Source of the DNA: Dethiobacter alkaliphilus
Lineage (GTDB): Bacteria; Bacillota; Dethiobacteria; DTU022; UBA8154
Assembly: GCA_016841605.1 (NCBI GenBank)
Contig: JAENYV010000010.1
Location: forward strand, 62,001 to 126,000
DNA: 64,000 nt
Direction: 5' to 3'
Translations under genes and position numbers: made by a program
Part shown: piece by piece, positions 60,700-64,000 of the stretch
Position numbering within the stretch: position 1 is the stretch's first letter
Layout: every line of letters starts with the position of its first letter
The notes under the pieces: model-generated
What the model was told of the DNA's origin: nothing
The model's input: only the letters and a program-made list of their open reading frames with translations
Database searches by the model: none

Positions 60700-61959
60700 T
60701 TATATTTCCGGCAGCGGGTCGGTGACCGAGCCCAGAAACAGTATCGAGCCGGTTTTATTATCAACTATACTGAAGAAGAAAGGCCGGTCCACGGTCATGG
60801 AAAACCGGTTCAAGGGAGCCGATTCCAATCTTATTTCCACTGAAGTTGCCCCGGCAGCTTCGGTGCCTTTCTCGTCTACTTCCACAAAGGTTTTATGCTT
60901 GACTTCAGCGATAAAAAGCCGGGGCGGAACGGGCCGCATGCCGGAGAAATCGGCTGCGGTGTCGTCGAAGGCGATCTCCATACCCAGCTCTTTGAGGACA
61001 TCGTTGAAGGATGCCTCGTATCCGAATTTGCAGCGGGGAAGCCCCACCGAGCCTTCTGTTTCCTGGAATGATGCCAACCATGTGTTCCATTCCGCGGGAT
61101 CCAGTTTTTCATATAAGCTTTGCAGGGTCTGCTCAGGGCCGGGCAGAAATATGTACATACTTAGCCGCCCGTTCTTCCCGTAAGGTATGCCGACCGCCTG
61201 AAATCCGTCACCTTCCAGGTAGGGAAATTCTCCTTCCCGGAACATAACGGGATGCTGTTTGGAATCCCCGTTCGGCAGGTGAAAAGGTACCTCCCGGGTT
61301 TGCTGCGGATCGAAAGGTTCGGACCAGTCGGCCTGGAAGTAGACGGCATTAAGTAAAAAAAGCACTGTCAGTGGATGGATCGGCGGCTCAATCAGCTTTT
61401 GAATTTTCCCCTTCGTTTGCTCCTCAACCCATTTGTTCATCGTCACGGCGGCGTCAGGAAAATCGAAATCCAGTGCTGCAACTTCCGCCCCGTAATATTT
61501 TCTGTTCCGTTGCAGGAAATCCTCATAGAAATCAACCCCTGAGCGCGCCCAGAGGGAGTTCGCAATAGCCAATTCCACCTTAGGATCCGGGTTCTCCAGG
61601 ATGGTGCGCAGATCGGCAAAGGCCTCGTTGACCTCCTCCACACTCAAACCCTGAAACTGCAGCACATCTTCCATAGCCGCGGCGGTTTCCCCGTCAGCCC
61701 CGTTATATGTCATTGCCAGGGCCAGAGAAACGCTTGCCGGCGAAATGAAGATGTTTTCAGCGGGTGTTTTTTCCCTGAGAGCATGAAACAGGTCAAAGGC
61801 AAAGGCCGTATTGGCCGTGACCAGACGCGTGTCTACATACTCCGCGGGTTCGGCATACGCTGATTTTTCTCCTGACCGGCAACCCGCGGTGCCGGCCAGG
61901 AGCGCACAAAACATTACCAAAAGGAGTAGGGTTGTCCCTTTTTTTACGTATCTGTTCAT
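60700..61959 (-). CDS. Serpin-family protease inhibitor, lipoprotein
   Basis: A 419-residue serpin with a lipobox G-T-A-G-C, giving Cys27 as lipid anchor. Typical serpin motifs are seen: N-I-F-I-S-P-A-S-V near 69, L-L-N-A-V-Y-F and F-H-L-P-N-G in the middle, the hinge E-K-G-T-E-A-A-G-A-T near 350, and D-R-P-F-F-F-S-I near the end. The intact hinge suggests an inhibitory serpin; the target protease cannot be read from the reactive loop. GAGG precedes the ATG. Bacterial serpins are uncommon and patchily distributed. Confidence 0.93.
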   Translation of the reverse strand: MNRYVKKGTTLLLLVMFCALLAGTAGCRSGEKSAYAEPAEYVDTRLVTANTAFAFDLFHALREKTPAENIFISPASVSLALAMTYNGADGETAAAMEDVLQFQGLSVEEVNEAFADLRTILENPDPKVELAIANSLWARSGVDFYEDFLQRNRKYYGAEVAALDFDFPDAAVTMNKWVEEQTKGKIQKLIEPPIHPLTVLFLLNAVYFQADWSEPFDPQQTREVPFHLPNGDSKQHPVMFREGEFPYLEGDGFQAVGIPYGKNGRLSMYIFLPGPEQTLQSLYEKLDPAEWNTWLASFQETEGSVGLPRCKFGYEASFNDVLKELGMEIAFDDTAADFSGMRPVPPRLFIAEVKHKTFVEVDEKGTEAAGATSVEIRLESAPLNRFSMTVDRPFFFSIVDNKTGSILFLGSVTDPLPEI

Positions 61960-62124: not shown

Positions 62125-62186
62125 TAACTAAATTAGTAAATAAAAACGAGAGATGATTCTCTGAAAATTACATGGGAGGAAAGGTT

Positions 62187-62666
62187 ATGAAAATACCAAC
62201 CAGTTTAAAACATAAACCGGTAATTGTTTCTGAAAACTATGAAAATGTTGATGGCAGATATGCCTATAATTCGGATGCGAAAGGACTTTCTTTAGGTTTG
62301 GCACAATGGAATGATCGGGGCAAGGTTGACATTTCCGCCAAAGTGTGGAGACACACCGGAGAAAAATGGTCCAGACAGTCTGAGGAATTGCCGTTGCACC
62401 GTGTCCTCGACCTGGCGATCCTGGTTTGCAGAACAAAGTTTTATTTTCAAGAAGCTTATCGATATGAAAAATTGTATGATACAGAGAATCCGGCAATCGA
62501 CAGAGTGGGCTTACAGGGTGACGCTATGACAGTGGCTGTCTGTACTGGCAATGAAAAGATCGATGAAGATATTAAGCTTTTTAGCCAGGCGCTCAGTAAC
62601 GATGATGAGCTTATTAGTGAGCGCTTGCGTACGCTGTCGAGGATATTAAAAGAAATGGGGTATTAG
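62187..62666 (+). CDS. Conserved-looking hypothetical protein (159 aa)
   Basis: A 159-residue soluble protein that I cannot place. It opens K-I-P-T-S-L-K-H-K-P-V-I-V-S-E-N-Y and has a conserved-looking middle (Y-N-S-D-A-K-G-L-S-L-G-L-A-Q-W) and a helical C terminus. No signal peptide or membrane helix. GGAGGAAAGG lies just before the ATG at 62187; an ATG five codons earlier is inside that box region. It is followed after 1 bp by a GIY-YIG protein, so the two are likely co-expressed under a palindrome-controlled promoter. Confidence 0.7.
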   Translation: MKIPTSLKHKPVIVSENYENVDGRYAYNSDAKGLSLGLAQWNDRGKVDISAKVWRHTGEKWSRQSEELPLHRVLDLAILVCRTKFYFQEAYRYEKLYDTENPAIDRVGLQGDAMTVAVCTGNEKIDEDIKLFSQALSNDDELISERLRTLSRILKEMGY

Positions 62667-62667
62667 T

Positions 62668-63027
62668 ATGGATAAAAAAAGACGCAAGGAGCTGCTGGAG
62701 GAATACAAGCAACTGAAGACCTATATGGGTGTATTTCAAATAAAAAATAATGCCGGCGGAAAAATTTACGTAGCTTCCTGTACCAACTTGAAAAACCGGT
62801 GGTTGACTATACAATTACAGCTGAATATGGGCAGGCATGCAAATGCCGGGCTGCAAAGGGACTGGAAGGAGATGGGGCCCGAAGCCTTTACCTACGAGGT
62901 GCTGGAGGAAAAGGAAACCCGCGAAGTTGCCGACAGGTGCTGGGAGCTTAAAAAAATGGAAAAAATGTGGCTGGAAAAATTACAGCCCTATGGAGACAGA
63001 GGATATAATAAGCCGCCAAGAAAATAA
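62668..63027 (+). CDS. GIY-YIG nuclease-family protein
   Basis: A 119-residue GIY-YIG-fold protein. The first strand reads G-V-F-Q-I and the second K-I-Y-V-A-S, replacing the canonical G-I-Y and Y-I-G; the helix N-L-K-N-R-W carries the expected Arg, and E72 in P-E-A-F-T-Y-E may be the catalytic Glu region. The degenerate first motif leaves nuclease activity uncertain. It is the second gene of the pair. Confidence 0.75.
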   Translation: MDKKRRKELLEEYKQLKTYMGVFQIKNNAGGKIYVASCTNLKNRWLTIQLQLNMGRHANAGLQRDWKEMGPEAFTYEVLEEKETREVADRCWELKKMEKMWLEKLQPYGDRGYNKPPRK

Positions 63028-63097: not shown

Positions 63098-63126
63098 TTG
63101 CCAATAAACAGCGTTTGCAGTATAAT
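63098..63126 (+). promoter_or_regulatory. Promoter of the ABC-F leader and gene
   Basis: TTGCCA (63098-63103) and TATAAT (63121-63126) are 17 bp apart. Transcription would start near 63133, giving a leader of about 160 nt. Confidence 0.82.
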
Positions 63127-63163
63127 AAAAGCACTTCAAGCCGACGGCAGAGAGGAGACATTC

Positions 63164-63187
63164 ATGTTCATCTCTTTAGAGGGATAG
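63164..63187 (+). CDS. Leader peptide (7 codons) of the ABC-F gene
   Basis: ATG at 63164 with AGGAG (63153-63157) six bases upstream encodes M-F-I-S-L-E-G, then TAG. Its codons 3-6 include CTCTTTAG (63172-63179), the exact complement of CTAAAGAG (63274-63281) at the ABC-F ribosome binding site. Short leader ORFs before ABC-F resistance genes sense antibiotic-stalled ribosomes. Confidence 0.65.
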   Translation: MFISLEG

Positions 63188-63290
63188 TTGAATAGTTTTT
63201 TCAGGATACCTTACCCCTCAACGAGAAGCTTTTTAGTTTCGGCATGGGTACGCGTACCCATGTTTTTCTATTTCTAAAGAGGTGATCATA
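63172..63290 (+). promoter_or_regulatory. Attenuator: terminator hairpin and Shine-Dalgarno-sequestering leader of the ABC-F gene
   Basis: CATGGGTACG with CGTACCCATG (63243-63262) is a perfect 20-bp palindrome followed by TTTTTC, a terminator within the leader. Separately the leader-peptide segment 63168-63180 can pair with about 63273-63285, covering the SD GAGG of the ABC-F gene (13 bp with one wobble). Ribosome stalling on the leader peptide would free the site. Confidence 0.75.
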
Positions 63291-64000
63291 ATGTCGACCA
63301 TACTACTGGTGAATAGCTTGAAGCAAGAATACGATGTTCATACTGTTTTCCAGGATTTTTCCTTCCATCTGTCGGACGGTGAACGAGTCGGCCTGATCGG
63401 CCGAAACGGGACCGGGAAAAGTACTTTGCTGAAGATCCTTGCCGGCCGGGAAGAGGCGACCGGCGGTCAGGTTCGCCATTACCTGCCACCAGACCGTATC
63501 GGTTATCTCCCCCAGGAACCGGTACTGCCCGGAGGACACACAATTAAATCGTATGCCGCGGCGCTTCATAAACCGGGCAGCATGCCGGATGGGGAAAAAG
63601 CCATAGCCCTCAAGTTTCTGGGTAAACTGGGATTTAACCGGGATGATTTCGAAAAGCCGACAGACGTATTAAGCGGAGGCGAAAAAACCAGACTCTGCCT
63701 GGTCCGCCTGCTACAGCAAGACTGCGGGCTTTTGCTCCTAGACGAGCCTACCACTCATTTGGATATGGGAGGTCTGGAATGGCTCGAGAACTATCTCAAA
63801 AACTTTCGAGGTGCTGCACTCATTGCCTCACACGATCGTTGTTTTCTGGATGAAACTACCGTACGGATATTGGAAATTGATCAAGGAAAGATCCGCTCTT
63901 ACCCCGGTAATTTTTCCCAATATGCCCGTATCAAGGAAGAGGAAAGCCGGAGTCAATGGGAGGCCTATCAGGATTATCGCCGTCAACGCAAGAAACTTAC
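63291..64000 (+). CDS. ABC-F family ribosome-associated ATPase (5' part; runs off the window)
   Basis: The first 236 residues of an ABC-F protein; the gene continues past the window edge. Seen: Walker A G-R-N-G-T-G-K-S-T, signature L-S-G-G-E, Walker B L-L-L-L-D-E-P-T-T-H-L-D and S-H-D-R, with the start of the basic interdomain linker (R-R-Q-R-K-K). ABC-F proteins protect ribosomes from antibiotics or tune translation. The leader with attenuator features points to an antibiotic-resistance type. GAGGTGAT lies before the ATG. Confidence 0.93.
   Translation, partial: MSTILLVNSLKQEYDVHTVFQDFSFHLSDGERVGLIGRNGTGKSTLLKILAGREEATGGQVRHYLPPDRIGYLPQEPVLPGGHTIKSYAAALHKPGSMPDGEKAIALKFLGKLGFNRDDFEKPTDVLSGGEKTRLCLVRLLQQDCGLLLLDEPTTHLDMGGLEWLENYLKNFRGAALIASHDRCFLDETTVRILEIDQGKIRSYPGNFSQYARIKEEESRSQWEAYQDYRRQRKKL

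Follow-up and report, generated by a model that had tools for sequence, protein, structure and literature searches.

In classical translational attenuators of the ermC and cat-86 type, a ribosome stalled on the leader frees a sequestered RBS. Several genes for ABC-F proteins are preceded by short uORFs, which begin or read MIN in vmlR (PMC9226507), MR[I/M] in cplR (PMC10201436) and MYLIFM in msrD, a proven transcription attenuator (PMC10314930); the corresponding uORFs of vmlR2 and lsaA are MK[L/Q] and MAGN. The stretch of DNA analysed here, referred to as the window, comprises 64,000 nucleotides (G000:C28:62001-126000) and ends within an ABC-F gene whose leader ORF encodes MFISLEG. This peptide differs from all of the published leaders compared, as the first-pass annotation of the window had suspected for the vmlR, msr and vga types, and a text search of the literature for MFIS leaders returned nothing relevant. 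We consider it about 80% probable that the region is a ribosome-operated attenuator that holds an ABC-F ribosome-protection gene silent as long as translation is undisturbed, a reading supported by the precedents of VmlR and CplR.

Layout of the locus and its relatives

The elements identified in the window, all on the forward strand, were as follows.

63098..63126, +, sigma-70-type promoter TTGCCA-17-TATAAT, 11/12 consensus positions, the best of the region
63153..63157, +, leader SD AGGAG, read from the sequence, 6 nt from the ATG
63164..63187, +, leader ORF MFISLEG, ATG to TAG (TAG 63185-63187), beginning with ATGTTCATC as in all five loci
63204..63216, +, GGATACCTTACCC, a conserved segment and candidate antiterminator strand, the top-ranking partner for the 5' arm of the terminator
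63241..63267, +, hairpin GGCATGGGTACGCGTACCCATGTT with T-run (terminator), stem of 10 pairs retained at all five loci, some by compensatory changes
63274..63293, +, ABC-F RBS and start codon, predicted by opening-cost computation to be locked by the leader ORF
63279-63284, +, ABC-F SD GAGGTG, read from the sequence
63291..64000, +, ABC-F gene (574 aa, NF000355), extending beyond the window to about G000:C28:127015

The promoter, the leader ORF with its SD, the hairpin with its T-run and the pairing of the leader with the ABC-F RBS all lie where the first-pass annotation had placed them. Transcription would start at about 63133. No Rfam family matched at its gathering score within the window. 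Directly upstream of the attenuator lie the gene for a DUF6530 protein and, after it, a short GIY-YIG-like ORF that narrowly misses the Pfam cut-off (62172-63027, +). A protease inhibitor of the serpin family, whose N-terminus is lipoprotein-like, is encoded at 60700-61959 (-).

The ABC-F protein consists of two ABC domains joined by an interdomain linker of 90 aa, and it scored 484 bits against NCBIfam NF000355 (ribosomal protection-like ABC-F; cut-off 380), which places it in this family. Scores for all of the named NCBIfam subfamilies searched (Vga, Msr, Sal, CplR, Lsa and OptrA) were below cut-off, for example 391/725 for Vga, 343/680 for Msr and 318/780 for CplR. The nearest solved ABC-F by sequence was N. 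vireti VmlR2 (PDB 8BUU), with 36% identity over the full length.

When 98 genomes of the class and a sample of 398 genomes of the phylum were searched, four further ABC-F proteins with 60-64% identity were found in three class genomes, namely L033 and L037 (both G049), L034 (G040) and L035 (G039), and the 398 phylum genomes contributed no additional relatives. The gene is patchy, occurring in 4/98 class genomes. In a tree in which some rows were fragments, the five proteins grouped with full support in a clade of their own, located on the Vml/Vga/Msr side, and the split (94/94) set them apart from EttA, PoxtA and OptrA. All five linkers were 90 aa long and shared the conserved loop ASS.RTPYLAARAK; the linkers compared were 94 aa in VmlR, 98 in VgaALC, 102 in VmlR2 and MsrE, 75 in PoxtA, 71 in OptrA and 67 in EttA. 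Judged by these sequence features, the protein is probably a ribosome antibiotic-protection protein and would most likely protect against PTC drugs of the lincosamide, pleuromutilin and streptogramin A type; a PTC-drug spectrum like that of VmlR is a first guess from clade and linker length.

A leader, a terminator hairpin and the SD GAGGTGA preceded the gene in all four relatives, TATAAT was also present at the equivalent position in L034, L035 and L037, and sequence outside the attenuator elements had drifted. The comparison set is small: of the five sequences, two share a genome and two more belong to near relatives. A covariance model built from the five loci recovered all of them with E-values no worse than 3e-29 and found nothing else convincing in the 98 class and 398 phylum genomes; further matches resembled, on inspection, chance terminators or coding sequence. 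A scan of genome contigs yielded distant ABC-F proteins only, and no relatives were found in viral contigs or in one further class of the phylum. Genome G049 carries two diverged copies (L033 and L037), each with its own attenuator, and one of them has a changed pairing register.

A second ABC-F gene, of the Msr family, is located on the same contig, some 46.7 kb ahead of the window (L022:3314-4873; G000:C28:15313-16872). Its product of 487 aa shares 74-76% identity with plasmid msr(D), and the gene is preceded by an MsrDL-like leader MFYIFM and a terminator, CGCAGGG-TTTT-CCCTGCG, identical to that of msrD.

Leader ORF and its pairing with the ABC-F start site

The leader reads ATG TTC ATC TCT TTA GAG GGA TAG. 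The seven-codon ORF with its own RBS, as first annotated, is present in the window, and both its start ATGTTCATC and the GGAG of its SD are invariant across the five loci, so that a leader ORF with an SD, as expected of a uORF-type translational attenuator, is conserved in the relatives. The related leader peptides were MFIITVAQ, MFISIMV, MFISIMF and MFIITG; F2 and I3 are invariant and S4 or T5 is present in 5/5. The leader is presumably translated and would be stalled by a drug. Since the invariant TTC and ATC codons are also part of a paired strand, their conservation cannot by itself be taken for a drug-sensing motif.

The exact complementarity between leader codons and ABC-F RBS that had been claimed for the window was borne out, with CTCTTTAG at 63172-63179 matching the complement of CTAAAGAG at 63274-63281. 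When G-U and flanking pairs are included, the helix reaches the ABC-F start codon. Duplexes between the leader (-6 to +27) and the ABC-F start site (-20 to +9) were compared with dinucleotide shuffles. The window duplex had an energy of -24.7 kcal/mol compared to -11.1 kcal/mol for shuffles, and none of 1000 shuffles was as good. Across the five loci the energies were -19 to -25 kcal/mol (shuffles -10 to -13), with z of -4.8 in the window and -3.1, -2.6, -3.9 and -3.5 in the others; MsrD-type leaders put through the same comparison lacked the pairing (z 0.1 and 0.5). In the alignment of the five loci, 90.4% of cells were paired vs 38-56% with the partner slid, and in four pairs, of which three belong to the terminator, both partners had changed. 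At L033 the RBS flank is GGTGACCGTGATGA and the leader pairs further in (TCATCACGGT) in a shifted register; this leader gave -22.5 kcal/mol with its own RBS vs -8 to -13 with any other RBS.

The minimum-energy fold of 63133-63300 had -54.4 kcal/mol (z -4.7, 0/200 shuffles as good). In this fold the leader codons pair with the ABC-F start site, and the terminator hairpin is intact inside the helix.

The effect of a ribosome was modelled with a mask of 31 nt, an assumed footprint, and read out as the cost of opening the region from SD to AUG. For the window, opening cost 14.7 kcal/mol in the free RNA and 4.4-5.3 kcal/mol with a ribosome on the leader (4.7 at codon 4), where the SD retained a weaker partner near the 5' end. 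The codon-4 mask lowered the cost in the other four loci from 13.4 to 4.7, 14.2 to 6.0, 15.7 to 5.7 and 12.9 to 3.5 kcal/mol, and masks at codons 1, 3, 5 and 6 gave 2.9-8.4 kcal/mol. With masks downstream of the leader the cost stayed high, the sole exception being a partial fall at L033 (9.4). When the 5' part was shuffled the mean fall was about zero, and the observed fall was matched in 0, 1, 0, 0 and 0 of 100 shuffles for the five loci. Folding with and without a ribosome on the leader, proposed as a check in the first-pass annotation, therefore released the ABC-F start in 5/5 loci, and the RBS was sequestered in silico unless a ribosome occupied the leader. Every locus behaves in silico as a translational attenuator. 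Translational attenuation by the leader, as modelled here, is well supported by the conserved pairing with the own RBS in five loci together with loss of the lock under the leader mask, and we regard it as strongly supported. Plasmid ermC copies with a recognisable leader (L078, L080 and L082) proved unsuitable as a positive control. Their leaders are shortened, lying only 104 nt ahead of the gene, and their RBS is open, which is what constitutive alleles with leader deletions would show, so that they provided only an unlocked reference.

In the proposed mechanism, most transcripts made without drug would stop at the hairpin 63241-63267. In those that read through, leader codons 2-6, together with bases flanking the leader start, would form a helix with the SD and start codon of the ABC-F gene, and this helix would close around the terminator hairpin so that the ABC-F protein is not made. 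An antibiotic binding in the PTC or tunnel would hold a ribosome on the seven-codon leader, covering the pairing strand, and the lock would open and allow ABC-F translation.

Terminator and alternative explanations

The first-pass annotation had described a perfect 20-bp palindromic terminator. The hairpin and T-run are real; the palindrome CATGGGTACGCGTACCCATG (63243-63262, directly followed by TTTTTCTATTT) measures 20 nt, and the RNA stem has 8-10 bp, with eight Watson-Crick pairs, two G-U pairs on the outside and a loop of 4 nt. All ten stem pairs were kept in 5/5 loci, three of them changed on both sides. By sequence and covariation, the leader contains an intrinsic terminator, as a ribosome-mediated transcription attenuator would. 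A T-rich tail follows the stem in all five loci, and since the T-runs are interrupted in the relatives, termination may be partial. The hairpin presumably terminates transcription, and stalling may relieve this.

The locus could be mainly a transcription attenuator of the MsrD or VmlR sort, in which a stalled ribosome frees GGATACCTTACCC for the terminator 5' arm and the leader:RBS helix serves as a back-up; we rate this as possible at clearly less than even odds. Besides the compensated stem, it is favoured by the position of the best 5'-arm partner, which begins 16-20 nt past the leader stop in 5/5 loci, as with UUACCCUU and AAGGGUAA at L033. However, this partner was above chance only at L033 (p 0.01) and marginal at L034, with z of about 0 in the window and +1.3 at L037, the terminator was lost on stalling only at L037 among the five loci folded, and the conservation signal of the leader:RBS pairing is stronger. 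In equilibrium folding the terminator won by 9-15 kcal/mol with the ribosome present or absent; because msrD behaves likewise despite being a proven transcription attenuator, this calculation cannot decide on antitermination and was rejected as a test of it. Of the combined transcriptional and translational attenuation originally proposed, the translational part stood (pairing and release by the mask), as did a conserved terminator, but the candidate antiterminator of the window locus was no better than chance. The transcription layer of the window locus may be a fixed brake and not a switch.

Compatible with a ribosome-operated attenuator is an arrest peptide specific to one drug, MFI(S/I), which the tunnel would sense jointly with that drug, for instance a macrolide (position 3 being Ile/Leu) or a phenicol or oxazolidinone (Ser/Thr preceding the P-site residue). 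Leu/Ile at position 3 matters for macrolide sensing (PMC10314930), and a penultimate Ala, less so Ser/Thr, favours chloramphenicol and linezolid stalling (PMC8987054). The residues common to all five leaders fit such sensing, but their codons are also the paired strand and their conservation need not serve the peptide; a ribosome on any of codons 1-6 opened the lock in silico, and the linker of 90 aa is closer to that of VmlR than to those of PoxtA, OptrA or MsrE. We hold drug-specific arrest as a tentative proposal. Its extended form, in which MFI[S/I] would be a novel arrest peptide that senses a drug class unlike that of any known ABC-F leader and whose coding bases act as both peptide sensor and anti-RBS strand, seems doubtful. 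That even an initiating ribosome (codon 1) opened the lock in silico, and that the protein does not reach the cut-off of any named resistance subfamily, would also suit a housekeeping sensor of translation stress, with an ABC-F that is no resistance factor and is made whenever leader translation slows; the patchy occurrence and the grouping with Vml, Vga and Msr and not with EttA make this quite unlikely. Random DNA often contains short ORFs and terminator-like sites, but a chance ORF and hairpin ahead of a constitutive gene are for practical purposes excluded by the relatives, with conservation and compensatory change in five loci.

Comparison with described attenuators

The ribosome-operated attenuator proposed here would add another kind of leader to those of ABC-F genes, in a nameless ABC-F clade and in bacteria beyond the studied Bacilli and Clostridia models. 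Its layout is simple and easily testable, with the sensing codons themselves locking the gene, and it illustrates how base pairing can confound peptide conservation when drug-sensing motifs are deduced from aligned uORFs.

Chromosomal cplR of C. difficile (PMC10201436) likewise combines a short uORF, an intrinsic terminator and SD sequestration ahead of an ABC-F gene. In cplR the terminator hairpin hides the SD, whereas here leader codons do so and the terminator is nested; the cplR uORF is MR[I/M] and the present leaders are MFI.. of 6-8 codons. B. subtilis vmlR (PMC9226507) shares the uORF, the terminator and an additional layer on the main SD, but its anti-antiterminator/antiterminator is defined and its SD lies in a local hairpin (SL-4), whereas the SD partner here is the uORF about 110 nt upstream. 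VmlR2 of N. vireti differs in its linker (102 aa vs 90 aa) and its uORF MK[L/Q]. The msrD leader (PMC10314930) is similar in its 6-7 codons, hydrophobic start, terminator and ABC-F gene; it differs in lacking leader:RBS pairing (z about 0) and is described as transcriptional attenuation. The locus differs from the ermC and cat-86 type in that an ABC-F gene follows and the lock encloses a terminator. No description of uORF codons hiding an SD with a nested terminator was found in the literature searched, which covered few subscription journals. The conclusion that this is a known type of resistance switch in a new version, with no new principle, is well supported by these comparisons.
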